This document shows positions 30,413 to 49,428 of a stretch of DNA of 64,000 nt, one piece after another. Numbering within the stretch: position 1 is the stretch's first letter; each line of letters opens with the position of its first letter. Below the pieces are notes generated by a model that was not told where the DNA came from, did no database searches, and saw only the letters and a list, made by a program, of their open reading frames with translations. The DNA comes from Chloroherpetonaceae bacterium (lineage in GTDB: Bacteria; Bacteroidota; Chlorobiia; Chlorobiales; Thermochlorobacteraceae), in assembly GCA_033763895.1 (NCBI GenBank), contig JANRJQ010000009.1:1-64000 (forward strand), written 5' to 3'. The position numbers and the translations under genes were made by a program.

Positions 30413-30937
30413 TCATTTTTCACTCAAAGTTGCCAAAGCCTTCTCCTCTTCTTCTATTCTGACATTCAATAACCATACATTCAAGATTGTGAAAATAATT
30501 GAAGTTATGTAAAGTTTAAATAAAATCGGGAAAAACAAAATTTCCATTCGAACAATCCAATAATTTGGGTGGCGTACAAAGCGATAGATGCCACTTTGGA
30601 TTGGTCGTGAACCGGGCAAAACAATAATCTTCGTATTCCAAAACTCACCAAGAGATTTTATGACATAATACCTTACAATCTGCAAAAACAGCAAAAATGT
30701 AAGCAAACTTCCCCAAAATGGAAAAATCGAAGGTTTCAAAAGAATAAATTCTGTAATCATACCGACAAACCAGCCCAAATGCAAAAGGACCATCCATTTG
30801 TAGTGGCTTTCGCCGTATTCAATTGCCCCTTTCGCTTTAAGCTGTGTTTCGTTATGCCTTGATACCATTAGCTCCATCAAACGCTGAACAGCCAGCAAAA
30901 TAATAAGATACAGAAAATACTCTTTTGTTAAGTCCAT
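30413..30937 (-). CDS. Isoprenylcysteine carboxyl methyltransferase-family protein
   Basis: 174-aa integral membrane methyltransferase of the ICMT/PEMT fold with four or five helices. The C-terminal signature reads IQSGIYRFVRHPNYWIVRME, with RHPNY the SAM-binding motif; the preceding GEFWNTKIIVLPGSRPI is typical. It begins 21 bases after the type III polyketide synthase stop on the same strand. In Streptomyces the SrsA-SrsB pair combines a type III PKS with an ICMT-like O-methyltransferase that methylates alkylresorcinol; this pair has the same make-up, so an alkylresorcinol or alkylpyrone methylation role is likely. Confidence 0.88.
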   Translation of the reverse strand: MDLTKEYFLYLIILLAVQRLMELMVSRHNETQLKAKGAIEYGESHYKWMVLLHLGWFVGMITEFILLKPSIFPFWGSLLTFLLFLQIVRYYVIKSLGEFWNTKIIVLPGSRPIQSGIYRFVRHPNYWIVRMEILFFPILFKLYITSIIFTILNVWLLNVRIEEEEKALATLSEK

Positions 30938-30958: not shown

Positions 30959-32062
30959 CTAAAATTGGAGCAGAAGTAGTTCAGAACTAAATCCGGGGCC
31001 TAATGCTCCCAAAATGGCGTAATCCCCGGAAATCTGATTTGCATTTGATAAATGTTGCTCCAGAATAAAAAGAACTGTTGGAGCAGACATATTTCCAAAA
31101 TTTGTTAAAACATGATATGCGTATCGAAGTTGCTCCCTATTGATGCCTAAACTTGATTCATAAGCCTCTAAAACCTTTGCACCGCCCGGGTGAGTAATAA
31201 AAAAGCGAATATCGCTTTGATCTAAGTGTCGTTTTTTCAATAACTTAGCTACACCCTCTTTCATAAAAGTTTTCACAATTGTGGGAACATCTTTCGAAAG
31301 AACAACATGAAGCCCCTTTTCTGTGAAATTCCAACCCATTACTTCAAGCGAATCAGACATTGTTTCCGTTTGTGACTCTAATAAGAAAACCGGCAAATTC
31401 TTAAGAGGTTTGGGAGCATTTACTTCTTTTCCTACAATAATTGCACTCGCAGAACCATCACCAAATAGAGCGGTAGAAATTATCGCCGCTTTTCCAATAT
31501 CCTCGCGCTGAAAAGTTAAACCACAACATTCTGTTGCAACCACTAAAATGATACTGTTATGCTCCGCAAGTGCCAAAGAACGGGCTAATGAAATCGCACC
31601 TGCTCCCCCACCGCATCCTAACCCCCAAAGCGGAAACCGTTTAATATTTTTTCTAAAGGGGAGCAAATGAATCAGTTTTGCATCGATTGAGGGGGTCGAA
31701 AACCCCGTCGTCGAGGTGAATACAATCGCATCAATATCAGAATAGTCAAAGCCTGTCGTATGCATTACACTTTCAATTGATCGCTTCGAAAGCTCTAAAG
31801 CGCTATCTTGATATAATTTATTCTTCGATTCAAATGTATGGTCCTTACCAAACCACTCCATTGGTGCTGAAAAATAGCGTTCTTTAACTTCCGAGTGATC
31901 AAATACCGTGAGAAGTCGTTCAATTTCCTGACCAAGCCTTTTTCCATAAACAAACCGAGCAAATTCCTTAACATCCTTTTGTTCTAATTTGTATGGCGGT
32001 AAAGCCGTACCAACACCAATGAGTTTTGGAAAGTCAGCTTTATTTTTGAATTGAGAATTCAT
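30959..32062 (-). CDS. Type III polyketide synthase (chalcone/stilbene synthase family)
   Basis: 367-aa thiolase-fold enzyme that condenses malonyl-CoA onto an acyl starter. Catalytic Cys150 is in WGLGCGGGAGAI, the catalytic His is in FITHPGGAKVLE, and Asn in YHVLTNFGNMSAPTVLF. Other marks: GFDYSDIDAIVFTSTTGF and FGDGSASAIIVG. It is most like bacterial alkylresorcinol or alkylpyrone synthases in setting, because an ICMT-type methyltransferase follows. Product class is inference. Divergent from the dihydrolipoamide acyltransferase gene; the roughly 300-base gap between them would hold both promoters. Confidence 0.94.
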   Translation of the reverse strand: MNSQFKNKADFPKLIGVGTALPPYKLEQKDVKEFARFVYGKRLGQEIERLLTVFDHSEVKERYFSAPMEWFGKDHTFESKNKLYQDSALELSKRSIESVMHTTGFDYSDIDAIVFTSTTGFSTPSIDAKLIHLLPFRKNIKRFPLWGLGCGGGAGAISLARSLALAEHNSIILVVATECCGLTFQREDIGKAAIISTALFGDGSASAIIVGKEVNAPKPLKNLPVFLLESQTETMSDSLEVMGWNFTEKGLHVVLSKDVPTIVKTFMKEGVAKLLKKRHLDQSDIRFFITHPGGAKVLEAYESSLGINREQLRYAYHVLTNFGNMSAPTVLFILEQHLSNANQISGDYAILGALGPGFSSELLLLQF

Positions 32063-35726: not shown

Positions 35727-36413
35727 ATGAAATACGAAGGAAAAGTTTTCGTTGCAGGTGCAAGCGGAAGAACCGGCTTATGGGTAATTAAACGGTTAAC
35801 ACACTACGGAATCCCATCAAAAGCATTCACAAGAAAGAAAGATTTTGATGCCGGCAGCTCGCTTTGTGAAGTTTCATTTGGAAAAATTCAAGATAAAGAC
35901 AGCATAAAAAGGGGCTTAGAAGGCGTTAATGCCGTAATTTGTACTGTTGGCGCGTCGAGCCTTTTTGGGGAATCCTCCCCTTCAGAAGTTGATGGTGAAG
36001 GGATTATTTCGCTTGTCAATCAAGCAAAAGAAGCAAAAGTAAAAAAGTTCATTTTGGTGAGTACAATCGCCGTGACCAAACCTTTTCATCCTTTGAATCT
36101 TTTCGGCGGTGTTTTGAATCAAAAACTTCGATCTGAAAATCACCTTAGACAAGAATACTCCGAAGAAGATTTCAGCTACACCATCATTCGCCCCGGAGGC
36201 CTAAAAGATGGGCCGCCGTTAAGTTATGCCTTAAAAGTTGATACAGGAGATAAGATTATGGGGATGGTTGATCGCTCTGATGTTGCTGAACTTTGTGTCC
36301 TTTCCTTAGAAAGTCCTTTCGCCCATAGAAAAACCTTTGAAGTAATTCGAACTGAGCTAAAGATACAAACGGATTTGAATGCCTGCCTTTCTGATCTGGA
36401 GCATTTAACTTGA
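35727..36413 (+). CDS. NAD(P)-binding atypical short-chain dehydrogenase (SDR-a5/NmrA-like)
   Basis: 228 aa with an N-terminal Rossmann motif VAGASGRTGLWVIKRL and strands AVICTVGASS and FILVSTIAVTK. FSYTIIRPGGLKDGP is the typical near-C-terminal block. Atypical SDRs of this kind include flavin/biliverdin reductase B-like and chlorophyll-related epimerase proteins; the catalytic YxxxK is not obvious, so it may be a redox sensor. It begins after a terminator hairpin. A 250-base AT-rich gap follows before mutY. Confidence 0.87.
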   Translation: MKYEGKVFVAGASGRTGLWVIKRLTHYGIPSKAFTRKKDFDAGSSLCEVSFGKIQDKDSIKRGLEGVNAVICTVGASSLFGESSPSEVDGEGIISLVNQAKEAKVKKFILVSTIAVTKPFHPLNLFGGVLNQKLRSENHLRQEYSEEDFSYTIIRPGGLKDGPPLSYALKVDTGDKIMGMVDRSDVAELCVLSLESPFAHRKTFEVIRTELKIQTDLNACLSDLEHLT

Positions 36414-36663: not shown

Positions 36664-37725
36664 TTGAGTTTAAATAAATTTTTACTTAAGTGGTTTCGTG
36701 AAAATAAGCGGAATCTTCCTTGGAGGTTAGAGAGAAATCCTTACAAGATTTGGATTTCAGAAGTGATGCTCCAACAAACACAAGTATCCACTGTTATCCC
36801 CTACTATCTTCGTTTTTTAGAGCGATTTCCTACAATAGATGCCTTGGCAAATGCTCCAATCAATGATTTGATGAAACTCTGGGAAGGGTTAGGGTACTAT
36901 TCAAGAGCAAAAAATCTAAAGTTGGCAGCACAAGCGATTATCGAAAAATACGGCGGTAATCTACCTCAATCAAAAAATGAACTTTTGAACTTAAAGGGTT
37001 TTGGAGACTACACGAGTGGCAGTGTGGCAAGCATTGCGTTTGGGGAAAGATGTACAGCAATTGATGGAAATGTACTTCGTGTAATCTCACGATTATTTGA
37101 AATTCGAACGGATATTACAAAGCCTGAAACAAAACATCAAATTGAGAAAATCGTTTACGATTTGTTACCGGCCCGAAATCCGGGCGAATTTAATGAAGCT
37201 TTAATGGAATTCGGGGCTTTGATTTGTACCCCAAAAAAACCAAACTGCATTGGTTGTCCGCTTCGAGTCTATTGTAAAGCGTATGAATCAGCAAGTGTGG
37301 GAGAATTGCCCTTTAAGCCAAAAAAGCCCAAAATCCCACACAAGGAAATCGCTGTCGCGGTAGTTAAAAAGGGAGAGAAAGTTCTTATAGCAAAGCGACC
37401 GGAGGGCGGATTACTTCCAAATTTGTGGGAATTTCCGGGCGGGAAAATTGAGCCCAACGAAACAGCAGAAGCATGTTGTCAACGCGAATTGCTAGAAGAA
37501 ACGGGATTGACGATTGAGGTTCAAGATAAAATTACTTCGGTTAAGCATAGCTACACTCATTTTAAGATCACCCTTCATGCGTTTTGGGCAACGGTCATCA
37601 AAGGAACGGCAAGAGCAAAAGCAAGCCAAGAGATTCGATGGGTTAAACTTACAGAACTCAATCTTTTTGCCTTTCCTAAAGCAAATCAAGAAGTTCTAAA
37701 AAAAATTCTTGATCAAAAGGGTTAG
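36664..37725 (+). CDS. mutY: A/G-specific adenine glycosylase with intact C-terminal Nudix box (MutY-MutT fusion)
   Basis: 353 aa. It removes adenine opposite 8-oxoguanine. HhH-GPD domain motifs: ISEVMLQQTQVSTVIP with the catalytic Glu, IDGNVLRVISRL with the catalytic Asp, and the iron-sulfur loop CTPKKPNCIGCPLRVYC. The C-terminal Nudix-fold half holds a complete box at 260-282 (GKIEPNE then RELLEETGL), whereas E. coli MutY's C-terminal domain has lost these residues. The start is TTG at 36664, which gives the family opening LLKWFRENKRNLPWR; no ATG precedes the motif. An OGG1-type glycosylase follows on the same strand. Confidence 0.95.
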   Translation: MSLNKFLLKWFRENKRNLPWRLERNPYKIWISEVMLQQTQVSTVIPYYLRFLERFPTIDALANAPINDLMKLWEGLGYYSRAKNLKLAAQAIIEKYGGNLPQSKNELLNLKGFGDYTSGSVASIAFGERCTAIDGNVLRVISRLFEIRTDITKPETKHQIEKIVYDLLPARNPGEFNEALMEFGALICTPKKPNCIGCPLRVYCKAYESASVGELPFKPKKPKIPHKEIAVAVVKKGEKVLIAKRPEGGLLPNLWEFPGGKIEPNETAEACCQRELLEETGLTIEVQDKITSVKHSYTHFKITLHAFWATVIKGTARAKASQEIRWVKLTELNLFAFPKANQEVLKKILDQKG

Positions 37726-37788
37726 TTCTTTCAAGATCATTTTCGAGGTTTGTAATTTTGAGTTTTTTTATAATTTTTCTTATGTAAA

Positions 37789-38778
37789 GTGAATTCATCG
37801 AATTCGTCGCCTTTTCTTTTGCAGGGTACCTATTTTTCAGGTGAAATATCATTCCTATCTGATTTTGATTTGGAATCGACACTTTTTTGCGGGCAAGCTT
37901 TTCGGTGGCAGCGTTTCTTCAGAAATTCAGAGATCATTTATGCTGGGGTTTTAGATGAGGCAGTGGTTTGGGTACATGCGATTTCCCCAAAAAGGATTCG
38001 GTTTGACTCAACGAAAGCTACTCTTTATTTTCGGCCGTGTAACGAGTTTCTTGAACATTATTTTGGAAAAAACGATCAACCCAAGGATTTTCTTCCAGCG
38101 CATTTTGAAGAAAAATATCCTCATTTATCCTTGATTTTCAATGAATTTGGAGGCCTTCATCTCCTTCGACAACCGCTCTATGAAACACTGATTTCATTCA
38201 TGTGCGCACAGGGTGTTGGAATTACCCTTATACGCCGCCAAGTTTCAAGACTTGCTGACCTTTCAGGCCAGACTCTTCAGAATGCGGATTTTGTTGCCTC
38301 CCGATTTCCTACCCCGTCTCAACTCGCGTCATTTACTTTACATAAAATTACTTATTGCACAAACAATAACAGAATTCGGGCCAAAAACATTTTAGCAATA
38401 TCTCAAGCTATTGCTGAAGGACGATTGAATTTGGATTATTATGAAAACTTGAGCCGCTCACCAATCCGGTTGAAAAAGGAACATTACCATCAATTACGTG
38501 AAGACTTGCTTCGTTTTGATGGAATTGGTGAAAAAATTGCGGATTGTGTTTGCCTTTTTGGGCTAGGCGCTTGGCACGCATTTCCAATCGATACCCACGT
38601 TCGGCAGTTTATGATTGAATGGTTTGGAATTCGGATGAAAGGGAAAACCATTAGTGCTAAAAATTATGCAAAAATTCAAAAAAAAGCGTGGAAAGAATTA
38701 GGTGAAAATGCAGGTTATCTTAGCCAAATTCTTTTCCATTATTGGCGCACAAAAATAAGAGGATTGGGGGTTGAGTAA
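37789..38778 (+). CDS. ogg: 8-oxoguanine DNA glycosylase, OGG1 type
   Basis: 329 aa, starting at GTG 37789. The N-terminal domain carries LESTLFCGQAFRWQRF, the OGG1 signature for reading the base. The helix-hairpin-helix loop is FDGIGEKIADCVC with the catalytic Lys at 249, and Asp268 is in FPIDTHVRQFM; these are the two catalytic residues of the family. It excises 8-oxoguanine paired with C. It lies 63 bases after mutY, so the two would complement each other in the GO defence. No separate mutT or mutM is nearby; MutT activity may lie in the MutY fusion. Confidence 0.92.
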   Translation: MNSSNSSPFLLQGTYFSGEISFLSDFDLESTLFCGQAFRWQRFFRNSEIIYAGVLDEAVVWVHAISPKRIRFDSTKATLYFRPCNEFLEHYFGKNDQPKDFLPAHFEEKYPHLSLIFNEFGGLHLLRQPLYETLISFMCAQGVGITLIRRQVSRLADLSGQTLQNADFVASRFPTPSQLASFTLHKITYCTNNNRIRAKNILAISQAIAEGRLNLDYYENLSRSPIRLKKEHYHQLREDLLRFDGIGEKIADCVCLFGLGAWHAFPIDTHVRQFMIEWFGIRMKGKTISAKNYAKIQKKAWKELGENAGYLSQILFHYWRTKIRGLGVE

Positions 38779-38789
38779 ATTCCTTTTCC

Positions 38790-40454
38790 TCAAGACCCTT
38801 TTCTAATTGAGATTTCAACTTTCTTTCTGAAAGCAATTTCCATCATTTCGGTCATTCTCATCGCCGCCCAAATTTCAATTTCAGGGTCAGAAAGCGCCGC
38901 AATTCTGAAAATGATGCGCTTTTCTTCAATACGGATTCCTTCCACTGCGATATTCTGTCGATGTGTTCGGTCAAATGCATTGGCGAGCCTAAGAATAGAG
39001 GCTAAAACTGTGACCACCCGTTTGGCCTTTGGGCTGAGCATCTCAAAATGCTCATGCTCCGGTTTTGGAAGCGATTTTCGATGGTATCTTGCCACATTAG
39101 CCATAATTTGAATCTCTTCAGGTTGAAAACCTCGCAATTCGCCGTTCAAAATTATGTAATGACTGTGCTTGTGGTGGGAAGATGCAGAAATAAAATACCC
39201 GATATTATGCAAAAAAGCAGCATATTCAAGTAGTTCCCTCTCAACTTGCGAGAATCCGTGTAATCTTTTGAGCAAATCAAACATCCTCACCGAAAGCCCG
39301 GCAATGTGTTTGGAGCGGGCTTCATCCCAATAACATCGTTTAGCTAATTCCACCACGCTTCTTCTCCGAACATCAGGATATTCATAAGCAAGCCGAAATT
39401 CTTCTAAATGTCCTGAAAGGTAATCAATCACAATCCCTTCACGAAGCGCAAAATCGGAAATAACCATTGTTTTTAGGTTAAAAAGCTCAAAAACAACTTG
39501 AAAAAGTAAAATGCCCGGAATGATTAAATCTCCGCGTTTTGGATCTAAGCCGGGCATTGCTCGGCGGGCGTCGCTTCGAGCGGCAAGAATCTTCTCCGTT
39601 AATCGTTCAAGATCCTTTTTTTCGATTTTAGGTGCAGAATTTTGCGGATCAAGCGTCAAGCCTTTATCTGCAAGAATCATTGCAGCAATATTTTGTGCGG
39701 TTCCAGATGATGCAATTGCAAGCTCAAATCCAATTTTTTTTGCTTCTATGGCGATCGGTTTTATTTCGTCCTTCAGATGTTTCCTAAGTCGCCTTTCCTC
39801 GGCTTTTGAAATAGGGTCTGTTGAGATAAATCGCTCAAACATTCGCGCGACACCCAGTTTTTTGCTTACAGCGAGTTTTAATTCGGTCGCATTGCCTACG
39901 ATAAACTCCACAGAGCCTCCTCCGGCATCCACAATCAGCGCTTTTCTTTTGCCAAATTCAACTGCATTACGAACGCCGAGATAAATGAGTCGTGCTTCCT
40001 CTTCACCGGAAATGATTTTGGTGCGAATTCCTACCGTATTCGTCACCCGCTCCATAAAATCCCCACCGTTTTTAGATTCTCGAATGGCACTTGTTGCAAA
40101 TGCTACAATATGATAAGGTTCAACGCCCCGCTGCTCCGCAAGTTTTCGAAATCGGAGCAAGGTTTCAATCCCAGAATTCATTGCTTCATCCGAAAGGAGC
40201 TTGGTGGTGATGCTCCCATCGCCAATTCGAATCATTTCTTTGGCTCTATCAATGGTCAGGAAATTCATATCCTCTTGCAACTCAACTATAATCATGTGAA
40301 ACGAGTTGGTGCCAAGATCAATTGCTGCTAATCGGAGCGGGTTTTTTTGCAAAAAAGAAGTGTTGGGAGCATGTGATTTCAGAGAACTCGAGGTCGTTGT
40401 TTTTTTTGAAAGCACATTTGAAGGAGATGCTTGCTTTTTGTATTGATTTTGCAT
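38790..40454 (-). CDS. Ppx/GppA phosphatase family protein
   Basis: 554 aa. After a Lys/Ser-rich 45-residue N-terminal extension the actin-like ATPase fold begins with LAAIDLGTNSFHMIIVE. The second phosphate loop is ALIVDAGGGSVEFIVGNATE and SSGTAQNIAAM follows. The C-terminal HD-like helical domain contains YAAFLHNIGYFISAS and HHKHSHYII. Such enzymes hydrolyse polyphosphate or pppGpp; which one applies is uncertain. The HD pair reads HN here, which is common in the family. It is co-oriented with the TPR kinase gene upstream (81 bases) and convergent with ogg. Confidence 0.9.
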   Translation of the reverse strand: MQNQYKKQASPSNVLSKKTTTSSSLKSHAPNTSFLQKNPLRLAAIDLGTNSFHMIIVELQEDMNFLTIDRAKEMIRIGDGSITTKLLSDEAMNSGIETLLRFRKLAEQRGVEPYHIVAFATSAIRESKNGGDFMERVTNTVGIRTKIISGEEEARLIYLGVRNAVEFGKRKALIVDAGGGSVEFIVGNATELKLAVSKKLGVARMFERFISTDPISKAEERRLRKHLKDEIKPIAIEAKKIGFELAIASSGTAQNIAAMILADKGLTLDPQNSAPKIEKKDLERLTEKILAARSDARRAMPGLDPKRGDLIIPGILLFQVVFELFNLKTMVISDFALREGIVIDYLSGHLEEFRLAYEYPDVRRRSVVELAKRCYWDEARSKHIAGLSVRMFDLLKRLHGFSQVERELLEYAAFLHNIGYFISASSHHKHSHYIILNGELRGFQPEEIQIMANVARYHRKSLPKPEHEHFEMLSPKAKRVVTVLASILRLANAFDRTHRQNIAVEGIRIEEKRIIFRIAALSDPEIEIWAAMRMTEMMEIAFRKKVEISIRKGS

Positions 40455-40534: not shown

Positions 40535-42820
40535 TTAAACGTTTCTCTCAAGCAACGGCAATTCAACATTCACGGTTGTTCCCTGATTTCGGCCGGGGCT
40601 TTCAACCCATACTTTTCCATTATGAAGTTCAACCAATTCTTTGACAATCGACAACCCAAGTCCGGTACTATTTTCTCCTTCAGTCGGCGAGCTGGTTAGC
40701 TTTGAAAATCGTTGGAAAAGAAGGGCGAATTCGTCTTCCAAAATTCCTTGCCCCTCATCGCGAACCGAAAGTCGCACGGCAAATTGTGTTTGATGAAGGT
40801 CGTCATTCGCTAAAAGCGTGTGATCCAAAATGGGTTGTGATTGAAATGATTGAACTCTCAAGACTGAAATGTCTATTGATTTTCCCCTTTCCGTAAACTT
40901 TACCGCGTTGAGAACCAAATTGTTTACGACTTCTCTAAGTCTCTCCTCATCGCCGAAAACCATACAAGTTTCATCGATATTCAGTGTAAGGCTCTGCTCT
41001 TTACGCTTTGCCCATTCTTGATATGTGATAGAAAGGACTTGAACCAATTGCCCAAAATTTATGGGACGCTTTTTTACTGATATTTGACCGGTTTCAAGGG
41101 CGGCGTTACTTAATAAATCGTTCAGAAGGGTTACCATTCTGTTGGAGAGATCAACAATGATATTCAGATACTGCCTATCTTGATTGGAACGACCATCTTT
41201 TCTTTCGAGCAGTAATTTTGCAAAATTGGCAATGCTTCCCAATGGGTACTTCAGGTCGCTGGCAGCAACACCCAAAAGCTTGGTTTTCATTGCATTCGCA
41301 GAACTGAGTGCCTCATTCATCGCAGACATTTCAGAATTTTTCAAGCGATAAATATCCGCCTCGGCTTTTCGCAGCTCGGCCTCTTTTCTGGCTTGCTCCA
41401 ATTGATAAAGCACTTCAATACTTTTCAACCTTTTGGTACTTTCTTCACTAAATACTTCCTCTTTGATCTTTTGAAATAGCTTATAGTGATGAAAAGCGAG
41501 GCTAATATTGAGCATTCGTTCAAAAACTTCGCTCAAAACAAAGTGTGAGTGATAAATTTCCGCTCTTGCTTTAAGAGATTCAGCAATTGAAAGTGCTTTT
41601 TGTGCGAATGACAGCGCTTCATCAAAACGCCCAACTTTAGATAATGACCCCGCAAGAAGCCTGCAACAAGATGCCGCTACAATGCGATCTTCCATCATCT
41701 CACGTAATTTGAGCGATTCCTCATAGAAGCGAATCGCTTCTTGAATGTTTCCGGCCTTTTCATAAACCCCGCCGATTTCTGCGAGCGATGATGCCCTCCC
41801 CCAAAGATCTCCAATTCGATCCTGAATTTCGAGACCCTTATTCAAAAAAGAGAGTGCATTTTCAAGATCATTGAGATGAAAATACTGAGACCCAATCGCA
41901 TGCAACGACTCTGCCTCACCCCGTGTATCACCCGTATTCCGCCGTAAAATCAAGGCTTTCTTGAAAAACTCAAGGGCTTCTTTATGATTGCCAAGTGCAT
42001 TTTGAACAATCCCGATTCCGTGCAAAGAAAGTGCTTCCCCATTGATATCGTCACACGATTTCCGAAGTGCTAAAGCTTGATGCAAAAATTCATTTGCACC
42101 GGCATAATCACCCAGATTTAAATGAATGAAACCAATGTTATTTATCGCATTGGCCTGACCGGAGAGCTCTTGAACATTGAAAAATAACTCTGATGCTCTG
42201 TTGTAGTGTTTTAAGGCGTTGGTGTAATCGCCCTTGTGAAAAGCAACATTTCCTAATCCGGTTTCTGCATAAGCAACACCATAATCAACATCATGTTGAA
42301 GAAAAATTTGATGTGATTCTGAAAAAAACTGATAAGCAACTTTATAATCGCCTTTGCTATAATAAACATAGGCTTTTCGGTAAATCAAATTGCCAACGCC
42401 CTCATCAAACTTAATGTCAATTGCGTTCTGAAGCGCGCTTTCAATACGTGTCAACGCTTCTTCATACTTCCCTTTTTTTTCTTCGGAGGTGGACATTAAG
42501 ATATGCGCCCAAATGACACCTCGCTCGTCTTTTGTTGACTGAAAAAGCTTTTCCGCTTTTAAAGCTAATTCAAATGAATCCGTGAAATCCGAAAAACGAA
42601 TTCTGCAATAAGCAAGAGTTAGCAATAAACGCGGGTAAAGCGGGTTATTATGAAAATTAGATTGAGGAAGGTTTTTTTCGATTGTCGACAATAATGACGT
42701 GGCGATTTGAAACGAACGCTTGGGGTCTGCAAATCGAATATCCCAAGCTAATGTGGTTTGTGATTCAAGCGTTTCTAAATTGAAATCTGTCTTATTATAC
42801 TCTTGTTCCAAAAAGTTCAA
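40535..42820 (-). CDS. TPR-containing sensor histidine kinase homologue lacking the phospho-accepting His
   Basis: 761 aa. Residues about 80-480 are twelve or so TPR-type helical repeats (for example GVAYAETGLGNVAFHKGDYT). A coiled coil at about 455-510 leads to the dimerisation H-box. The H-box, at 519-526, reads AASDLKYP where active kinases read AxHDLKNP, so the His is Ser521 and the following Asn is Tyr525. The ATPase part is intact: N-box EVVNNLVLNAVKFTE, G1 VRDEGQGI, G2 STGLGLSIVKELVELHNGKV. No receiver or transmembrane segment. It may sense or regulate through ATP binding but cannot autophosphorylate at this His. Confidence 0.88.
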   Translation of the reverse strand: MNFLEQEYNKTDFNLETLESQTTLAWDIRFADPKRSFQIATSLLSTIEKNLPQSNFHNNPLYPRLLLTLAYCRIRFSDFTDSFELALKAEKLFQSTKDERGVIWAHILMSTSEEKKGKYEEALTRIESALQNAIDIKFDEGVGNLIYRKAYVYYSKGDYKVAYQFFSESHQIFLQHDVDYGVAYAETGLGNVAFHKGDYTNALKHYNRASELFFNVQELSGQANAINNIGFIHLNLGDYAGANEFLHQALALRKSCDDINGEALSLHGIGIVQNALGNHKEALEFFKKALILRRNTGDTRGEAESLHAIGSQYFHLNDLENALSFLNKGLEIQDRIGDLWGRASSLAEIGGVYEKAGNIQEAIRFYEESLKLREMMEDRIVAASCCRLLAGSLSKVGRFDEALSFAQKALSIAESLKARAEIYHSHFVLSEVFERMLNISLAFHHYKLFQKIKEEVFSEESTKRLKSIEVLYQLEQARKEAELRKAEADIYRLKNSEMSAMNEALSSANAMKTKLLGVAASDLKYPLGSIANFAKLLLERKDGRSNQDRQYLNIIVDLSNRMVTLLNDLLSNAALETGQISVKKRPINFGQLVQVLSITYQEWAKRKEQSLTLNIDETCMVFGDEERLREVVNNLVLNAVKFTERGKSIDISVLRVQSFQSQPILDHTLLANDDLHQTQFAVRLSVRDEGQGILEDEFALLFQRFSKLTSSPTEGENSTGLGLSIVKELVELHNGKVWVESPGRNQGTTVNVELPLLERNV

Positions 42821-47841: not shown

Positions 47842-49428
47842 TTATTTTGCTTTCAAGTGAAAAATAATTTCTGAATACGCCCCTTTGTCTTTTTCGGTTC
47901 GGTTCAATACGGGACGTTTGTATTGATTCACAATTTGCATACCTGACATTTCTGAAATTTGGGGATATAAATTGTTTTTGTCATTTGCTACTAGGAAAAT
48001 ATCGTAATCATCAGCTAAAAATCTTTTGCAGTTGTTCAAAACATTTGCGATGCCTTTTACGTAATCTTGTTGGGCTTGTTTGGTTTGCTTTTTAGACAAA
48101 GAGCCAATTTCTTGCTCGTCTTTTCGTTCGAAACCGAACAAATCATAGGCGTAGGCGTGTTGTTCGTGATAATCAATCAAACCCACATAAGGAGGACTTG
48201 AAAAAATGCCTTTTATTTTTTTTTGTTGGGCTAATTCGTAAAATACAGGATATTTTTTTTCTAATTCCTTTAAAATATCTATAGTTTCGGAATTACCATT
48301 TAAGCAATATTGAAACGTATTTGTTCGCAATTTTGAAAATTCAGCATATCGTTGAATCGTATCTTTGCAATACCTTTCCCACCACGAAACCATAGAAAAC
48401 AAAGGCTTGCAAATTTTTCCGTGTTTGGCACAATAGTATGTAGTGGTTACAGGTTCTACCAAAGTTGCTAAATCTGCGTGTGTAGTTGCCCTGCAACTGC
48501 GAATTGTACGGCTCAAAATCACGGTAAGCACTTTTTTTGTGTGTGGATTTTGTACGTTTTTGATTTTTTCAAATACAAAATCAATCTCATTGCGAACCGT
48601 TTGTAAATACCACTTGCCTAAAAAAGTGTTTTGTTCGTCTTGACGAATTTTTATTTGGTATTTGGCTACCAACTCATTGAATTTTTCTAAAACAACTTTT
48701 TCGTGTGCTTCTGAGTAGGTTTTCTCGTCAATTTCTTTTTTTCTTACTTTAATTTTAAATTCAGGTGAAGGGAAATATTTTTTATCGTATTCGGTTAAAA
48801 AGTCAGCAAGTTCCTTCTCAAAAGCAAGGTGCGGCGAATTTGTAACAAACTTTTTTATGGCTTTACTTATCTGTTCTGTTTCTTGGTAAAGGTTCGCCAA
48901 ATCCACTTTTGAAACTTTTACATTGCTAATCAAAGCATTAAAAGCCGAAACATCTATTCCAATGGCGTGTATGCCTAATTCGTTAGCTTGTACTAAGGTT
49001 GTTCCACTGCCACAAAAAGGGTCAAGCACAATATCACCTTCTTTGAAAAAGGTTTGTATTTTAAATTCGTCAGTGTGGTCGTCCAAAAAATATTCTACTA
49101 ATTGTGGAATATATTTGCCTTTGTAAGGGTGCAAACGGTGTACATGCTTTGTGGTTTCAGCTTCTTTCAAGTGTTCAAAACTCAAAGCCCAATTCAAATC
49201 ACTACCTAATTTATTTTTCCAATCCAACTCACGACTTCCATAATAGCCTTGGTAGTAGTTGATAAGCTCTTGTTTATCGATTAAAACTGTTCCATTGTTC
49301 CCTGTTTTGGCTATTCTACCATAGTTTACCAAGTAGGAAATGTTGGAAGTCGTTACGTTTTTGCTGATATGTTGACTTGCAAACTCGGCTGCTTCTTTAA
49401 GAGTTAGCAAATTTGTTTTTGCAATCAT
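47842..49428 (-). CDS. DNA methyltransferase with N-terminal HTH
   Basis: 528 aa. Motif I DPFCGSGTTLVQ is at residues 136-147 and motif IV SPPY at 411-414. SPPY is typical of N4-cytosine or some N6-adenine methylases, and the FxGxG-before-DPPY order with a long spacer fits the alpha class. Residues about 8-60 (LTLKEAAEFASQHISKNV) form a MerR/HTH-like domain that could read DNA and regulate the operon, as in some N4mC enzymes. It is the protector for the TdeIII-like nuclease. No membrane segment. Confidence 0.9.
   Translation of the reverse strand: MIAKTNLLTLKEAAEFASQHISKNVTTSNISYLVNYGRIAKTGNNGTVLIDKQELINYYQGYYGSRELDWKNKLGSDLNWALSFEHLKEAETTKHVHRLHPYKGKYIPQLVEYFLDDHTDEFKIQTFFKEGDIVLDPFCGSGTTLVQANELGIHAIGIDVSAFNALISNVKVSKVDLANLYQETEQISKAIKKFVTNSPHLAFEKELADFLTEYDKKYFPSPEFKIKVRKKEIDEKTYSEAHEKVVLEKFNELVAKYQIKIRQDEQNTFLGKWYLQTVRNEIDFVFEKIKNVQNPHTKKVLTVILSRTIRSCRATTHADLATLVEPVTTTYYCAKHGKICKPLFSMVSWWERYCKDTIQRYAEFSKLRTNTFQYCLNGNSETIDILKELEKKYPVFYELAQQKKIKGIFSSPPYVGLIDYHEQHAYAYDLFGFERKDEQEIGSLSKKQTKQAQQDYVKGIANVLNNCKRFLADDYDIFLVANDKNNLYPQISEMSGMQIVNQYKRPVLNRTEKDKGAYSEIIFHLKAK

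Follow-up and report, generated by a model that had tools for sequence, protein, structure and literature searches.

The GO system of Escherichia coli consists of three enzymes, MutT, MutY and MutM. The C-terminal domain of MutY is said to have been proposed as a MutT descendant by Noll et al. in 1999, and the NCBI domain note for MutY, to our knowledge, gives the Nudix motif as absent. Our search of the open-licence literature turned up no MutY described as having an intact or active Nudix box. A/G-specific adenine glycosylases are stated to lack the canonical Nudix box in the portion of PMC5389931 that treats them, human MutY among them, and the MutY NUDIX domain is termed non-catalytic in the corresponding portion of PMC9266487. 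Set against a family described in these portions as having no box or as non-catalytic, the MutY class presented here, whose members keep an intact Nudix box, appears to be new. It came to our attention in a stretch of 64,000 nucleotides (the window) on contig C9 of a 3.55 Mb genome with 14 contigs and a completeness of 99.09%. The source organism belongs to the order Chlorobiales.

The window encodes two neighbouring genes on the plus strand, namely mutY (36664-37725) for an A/G-specific adenine glycosylase of 353 aa with a C-terminal Nudix domain and a TTG start, and ogg (37789-38778) for an OGG1-type 8-oxoguanine DNA glycosylase of 329 aa with a GTG start, spaced by 63 nt. The pair is preceded by a gene for an NAD(P)H-binding protein (35727-36413) and converges with a Ppx/GppA gene (38790-40454). 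The only terminator-like site between 36300 and 39000 lies within mutY and none was found between mutY and ogg; the scan yielded eight promoter-like sites against 7.0 expected and one terminator-like site against 2.3 expected. Further genes in the window include a type III polyketide synthase of the chalcone/stilbene synthase family (30959-32062, minus strand), which adjoins an isoprenylcysteine methyltransferase-family gene (30413-30937), a single protein in which many TPR repeats precede histidine kinase and ATPase domains (40535-42820, minus strand), and a protein containing an N6/N4 DNA methylase domain (47842-49428, minus strand).

MutY scored 325.2 bits on NCBIfam TIGR01084 mutY, over the cut-off of 286.5, and is 57% and 55% identical to two relatives (L041 and L042, respectively). 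Sequence alignment revealed the catalytic residues E33 and D134, which we take to correspond to E37 and D138 of E. coli MutY. The [4Fe-4S] cysteines C188-X6-C195-X2-C198-X5-C204 (37225-37275, plus strand) are invariant in three aligned sequences and were also found in the complete fused MutY relatives. Catalytic Glu and Asp, FeS cysteines and the 8-oxoG-reading hairpin loop are common to the window MutY and the MutYs of E. coli (b2961) and Geobacillus (1rrq/6u7t), and Geobacillus MutY also has the GLLxNLWEFP stretch, whereas the canonical box that is complete in the window protein is absent from both in the alignment. The reading loop is H-S-Y-T-H (H-x-Y-T-H type), in which Y297-T298-H299 (37552-37560, plus strand) align with the FSH loop of Geobacillus and E. 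coli MutY. Loops of this FSH type read 8-oxoG (PMC10993402, PMC11078426), and a Thr in place of the Ser is frequent (PMC11078426), according to the portions of these papers that deal with the loop.

The C-terminal MutT-like Nudix domain (37339-37707, plus strand) was recognised by PF14815 and PF00293 over their cut-offs and by TIGR00586 mutt at 94.0-96.6 bits, just below the cut-off of 97.9. MutY residues ~229-347 scored 108.4 bits for NUDIX_4 and 71.2 bits for NUDIX. A complete Nudix box had been claimed for this domain in the preliminary description, and our analysis bears this out, with residues 260-282 (GKIEPNETAEACCQRELLEETGL; 37441-37509, plus strand) matching GX5EX7REUXEEXGU and aligning with E. 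coli MutT. From the domain scores and the conservation of the box we judge that it is not a chance match. Specifically, R23, F35, G38, K39 and E44 of E. coli MutT align with R245, F257, G260, K261 and E266 of the window MutY, and R52, E53, E56, E57 and N119 with R274, E275, E278, E279 and N341 (the last at 37684-37686, plus strand). N119, which presumably has a role in 8-oxoG recognition by MutT, is kept in 49/50 of the class described below. The complete box and the equivalents of R23, F35, K39 and N119 are thus common to the domain and to E. coli MutT (b0099, TIGR00586). Unlike E. coli MutT, the window domain is fused to a glycosylase, has THFK, part of the H-x-Y-T-H reading loop, in place of PDRH, and lacks the fourth acidic residue, with A320 at the position of E98. 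As an isolated sequence the domain is closer to solved MutT/CTP pyrophosphohydrolases (best E 8.1e-22) than to solved MutYs (best E 6.8e-11). The structure model of MutY (AlphaFold, three sequences) has a mean pLDDT of 56.5, with most of the Nudix domain below 50. MutY contacts 8-oxoG via its loop in a mode quite unlike that of MutT, as described in the relevant portion of PMC9266487, and because the two modes of contact differ, both functions could in principle coexist in one domain.

The intact-box MutY is a widespread variant in the phylum and no private invention of the window. Searching 247 genomes of the phylum with the window MutY gave 128 matches at E <= 1e-60, which fall on either side of a gap from 1.9e-91 to 4.0e-79: 72 strong matches, seven of them in Chlorobiales, and 56 weak ones. 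From these we examined 43 of the 65 strong matches outside Chlorobiales, 20 from the weak group of 56 and, in addition, 10 complete Chlorobiales copies. The glutamates and the arginine of the box are retained in 53/53 MutYs of the strong (intact) class, which is enriched for the box by construction since the query itself has it, versus 0/20 with the box in the weak (degenerate) class. The box is likewise kept in two more copies from Chlorobiales, of which one is a fragment at a contig end and the other a split gene. The nine residues equivalent to MutT R23, G37, G38, K39, E44, R52, E53, E56 and E57 are identical in all 53 intact-class proteins while the mean frequency of the commonest residue over the 125 columns of the alignment is 0.61, and this identity is therefore not explained by the query-driven construction of the class. 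The box as a one-off oddity of the window was ruled out by this phylum-wide class. Ser or Thr and His of the MutY loop occur in 53/53 and the last Gly of the box in 45/53 of the intact-class proteins, and the position of MutT E98 is mostly Ser, Ala or Thr (37/51), as against Glu in 6/6 aligned separate MutTs of Chlorobiaceae. Among MutYs borne on plasmids none of eight has the box (eight examined of 20 listed, from 56 records; four from Bacillota, three from Alphaproteobacteria and one from Bacteroides, a member of the same phylum). In one Chlorobiales genome (G004, C9:3280-4310; L017/L164) mutY, intact in relatives, occupies two overlapping frames, and the split could be a sequencing error.

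A tree of the N-terminal part grouped the 53 intact-class proteins with E. coli MutY, apart from the 20 degenerate proteins (support 0.98). In the tree of the C-terminal domains, one side of a split (support 0.70) held the intact class and seven MutTs and the other held every degenerate domain, that of E. coli MutY among them; the seven MutTs formed one group (0.94) nested within the intact class. This pattern fits the retention of an ancestral domain that would be active, and a long-branch effect or a re-fusion is also possible. A recent swap-in of the C-terminal domain from a free MutT is unlikely because the domain retains the loop of MutY and the GLLxNLWEFP stretch; the tree is equivocal on this point.

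Since the catalytic residues are invariant over such a wide class, the Nudix box is probably more than a relic. We lean, with moderate confidence drawn from sequence comparison, towards a bifunctional MutY that would also hydrolyse 8-oxo-dGTP and would be paired with an OGG replacing MutM, the two together covering the three GO functions. MutY would be a true adenine glycosylase with a dual-purpose C-terminal domain: the beta-hairpin loop H-x-Y-T-H would read 8-oxoG opposite A in DNA, like other MutYs, and the retained MutT-type pocket (the Nudix glutamates with R245, K261 and N341) would hydrolyse 8-oxo-dGTP to the monophosphate. The OGG1-type glycosylase from the next gene would remove 8-oxoG from DNA and substitute for MutM, and both genes may be co-transcribed.

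The box might instead serve to bind metal and phosphate when DNA or the lesion is recognised, in a domain as non-catalytic as that of E. coli MutY. The description of the MutY NUDIX domain as non-catalytic and of a contact with DNA phosphate in the pertinent portion of PMC9266487 would agree with this, as would the constant co-occurrence of box and MutY loop (53/53). We nevertheless consider it rather unlikely, as the fixed Nudix glutamates, R23, K39 and, in nearly all proteins, N119 would exceed the needs of a phosphate site. Furthermore, the 20 degenerate-class MutYs have no box but keep a loop of the x-L-S/T-H type, and DNA recognition therefore seems independent of the box. A Nudix site that works as a pyrophosphohydrolase on a nucleotide other than 8-oxo-dGTP, e.g. 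a cytidine substrate, appears quite unlikely. The isolated domain does match both MutT and chains named CTP pyrophosphohydrolase (3gwy, 2rrk), it scores 75.3 bits on the NCBIfam model PRK10546 for a pyrimidine nucleoside triphosphate diphosphatase, and E98 of MutT is not kept. However, the MutT model scores higher (94.0 bits), N119 is almost always retained, and the position of the domain on MutY would argue for 8-oxoG as the ligand. A recent relic, inactive and about to degenerate, is highly improbable, for although the E98 position is already variable, the nine catalytic and pocket residues are fully invariant across 53 sequences of which the other 52 are 40-61% identical to the window MutY.

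A bifunctional MutY can be set beside the other repair genes of these genomes. In the window genome we found three Nudix genes including the MutY domain, and the two others, as far as their sequences tell, resemble ADP-ribose-type hydrolases and do not appear MutT-like. The same genome, which is 99% complete, gave no match to Fpg/MutM (PF01149). A separate Nudix-type mutT or a mutM elsewhere in it was ruled out by the genome searches for Nudix, TIGR00586 and PF01149, an outcome in favour of the proposal in the preliminary description. Profile searches covered 61 Chlorobiales genomes, 12 of them with a fused MutY; ten of these 12 are at least 95% complete, G007 and G008 are 84% and 81% complete, and G006 is 13% contaminated. 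The MutY domain was the best TIGR00586 match in 12/12 (95.0-105.8 bits), over the cut-off in nine of the 12 and in nine of the 11 fused relatives of the window MutY, and other TIGR00586 matches in these genomes reached at most 39.1 bits among the matches listed. The other 49 Chlorobiales genomes showed no full-length match to the window MutY. None of the 12 genomes with fused MutY has a separate MutT-like ORF scoring at least 65 bits, against 28/49 of the others (Fisher 2e-4), and outside Chlorobiales one at E <= 1e-12 was present in 6/43 intact-class versus 8/20 degenerate-class genomes (Fisher 0.047); both contrasts ignore relatedness and may reflect few evolutionary events. With TIGR00586 at E 1e-12 outside Chlorobiales, the MutY domain itself was matched in 43/43 intact-class genomes (32 over the cut-off) and in 0/20 of the degenerate class. 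The absence of a separate MutT is weak evidence when taken alone, because 12 of the 20 degenerate-class genomes also had no match to the MutT model at E 1e-12 and six of the 43 intact-class genomes do have a separate one. Fpg (PF01149) was matched in 0/61 Chlorobiales genomes, with hits in 8/14 in the control search, and in 8/43 intact-class and 7/20 degenerate-class genomes among the 63 outside Chlorobiales. Since many genomes of both these classes gave no Fpg match either, its absence is not special to Chlorobiales. As a separate observation, members of family f4 (probably Chlorobiaceae; L019-L036) encode a MutY-like HhH protein in frames of 277-342 residues with SE[VI]MLQQT and VDTN; the 18 examined, each the best match to the window MutY in one of the 49 genomes, have neither the FeS cysteines nor a Nudix domain, and their genomes are without a full-length MutY match.

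The second gene had been taken for an OGG1-like glycosylase with K249 and D268, an assignment that our searches support. The protein matches OGG_N (PF07934, E 9.5e-11), its HhH-GPD score is borderline (25.5 bits as a protein with a Pfam cut-off of 26.2, and 27.2 bits in the genome search), and on TIGR00588 ogg it reaches 113 bits, below the cut-off of 397.85. Its best solved relative is the C. acetobutylicum OGG 3f0z (E 1.3e-25), also the best Foldseek match (TM 0.74/0.84) of a structure model with a pLDDT of 89.6; OGG_N domain, HhH, K249, D268 and the fold are common to both. In the catalytic segment from K249 to D268 (38533-38592, plus strand; own numbering, by alignment) K249 is invariant and D268 nearly so among 18 aligned sequences, and the protein thus combines OGG_N and HhH with the catalytic Lys and Asp of OGG1. 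It also has what we take to be the equivalents of G42, C253, Q315 and F319 in human OGG1 numbering.

Judged from its residues, this OGG is a Chlorobiales variant without most of the human residues that read the opposite cytosine. Of N149, R154, Y203 and R204 the window OGG retains only the equivalent of R204 (R197). The estranged-base loop is altered to CAQGVGITL (38203-38229, plus strand), with human N149 replaced by G142 and R154 by L147 when aligned via N127 and M132 of CacOGG1, and CTNNNRIR (38356-38379, plus strand) contains a two-residue insertion with NNN and has lost the Y203/F179 aromatic. All 37 distinct Chlorobiales OGGs that we aligned have changes at the positions of N149, R154 and Y203, the NNN insertion and the kept R204, and share CAQGxGxx[L/I]IR and C-x-NNN-xx-RA. 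These changes and the insertion set them apart from the bacterial OGG1 branch, as in the 23 Clostridia OGGs R154 and an aromatic residue at 203 are present throughout and N149 in 22. The portion of PMC3397491 on the estranged-base residues describes their roles, and reports that C. acetobutylicum OGG, with Met at 154 and Phe at 203, accepts any opposite base. From the rebuilt pocket and this precedent a relaxed choice of the opposite base is predicted for the Chlorobiales OGG. OGG_N was matched in 60/61 Chlorobiales genomes, and in the exception (G058) the window OGG is matched in part by a sequence at the start of a contig. Against the 247 genomes of the phylum the window OGG gave 61 matches at E <= 1e-10, a limit that would miss more distant OGGs, and all were in Chlorobiales; among the non-matching genomes listed, G235 is a Chlorobiales member and the rest are of other orders.

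The pairing of the two genes is probably old in Chlorobiales but not fixed. On one strand mutY and ogg abut in four of the 12 genomes with fused MutY (G000, G001, G009 and G010, from three families), and in three of these four the open frames touch or overlap. In G012 two short ORFs separate them over ~0.8 kb, and of the other seven genomes G003 and G007 have them at a distance of ~11 kb and the remainder on separate contigs. The proposal of the preliminary description, that two adjacent genes supply the GO functions, gains from the invariant box residues and from searches that matched no Fpg or MutT-type Nudix gene; it is weakened by the limited adjacency and by the change of MutT Glu98 to Ala.

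If true, two neighbouring genes would cover a repair job that is spread over three in E. coli, and a single protein may guard DNA and the nucleotide pool alike against one and the same lesion, in genomes where the searches matched no separate MutT or MutM. More tentatively, it is possible that a broad bifunctional MutY class in many families of the phylum keeps the ancestral state, in which a MutT was fused to a glycosylase and gained 8-oxoG reading with the hydrolase unlost, and that Chlorobiales added an OGG with a rebuilt opposite-base pocket to obtain the whole GO system from two proteins. The proposed step from MutT to the MutY domain becomes testable with a living class that unites active-site residues of MutT with the reading loop of MutY. 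Another gene neighbourhood was seen in Clostridia, where 11 of 23 loci (L049, L050, L052, L053, L055-L058, L061, L063 and L067) have an endonuclease III-sized frame almost directly after OGG; these frames comprise 209-250 residues and match the MutY query.
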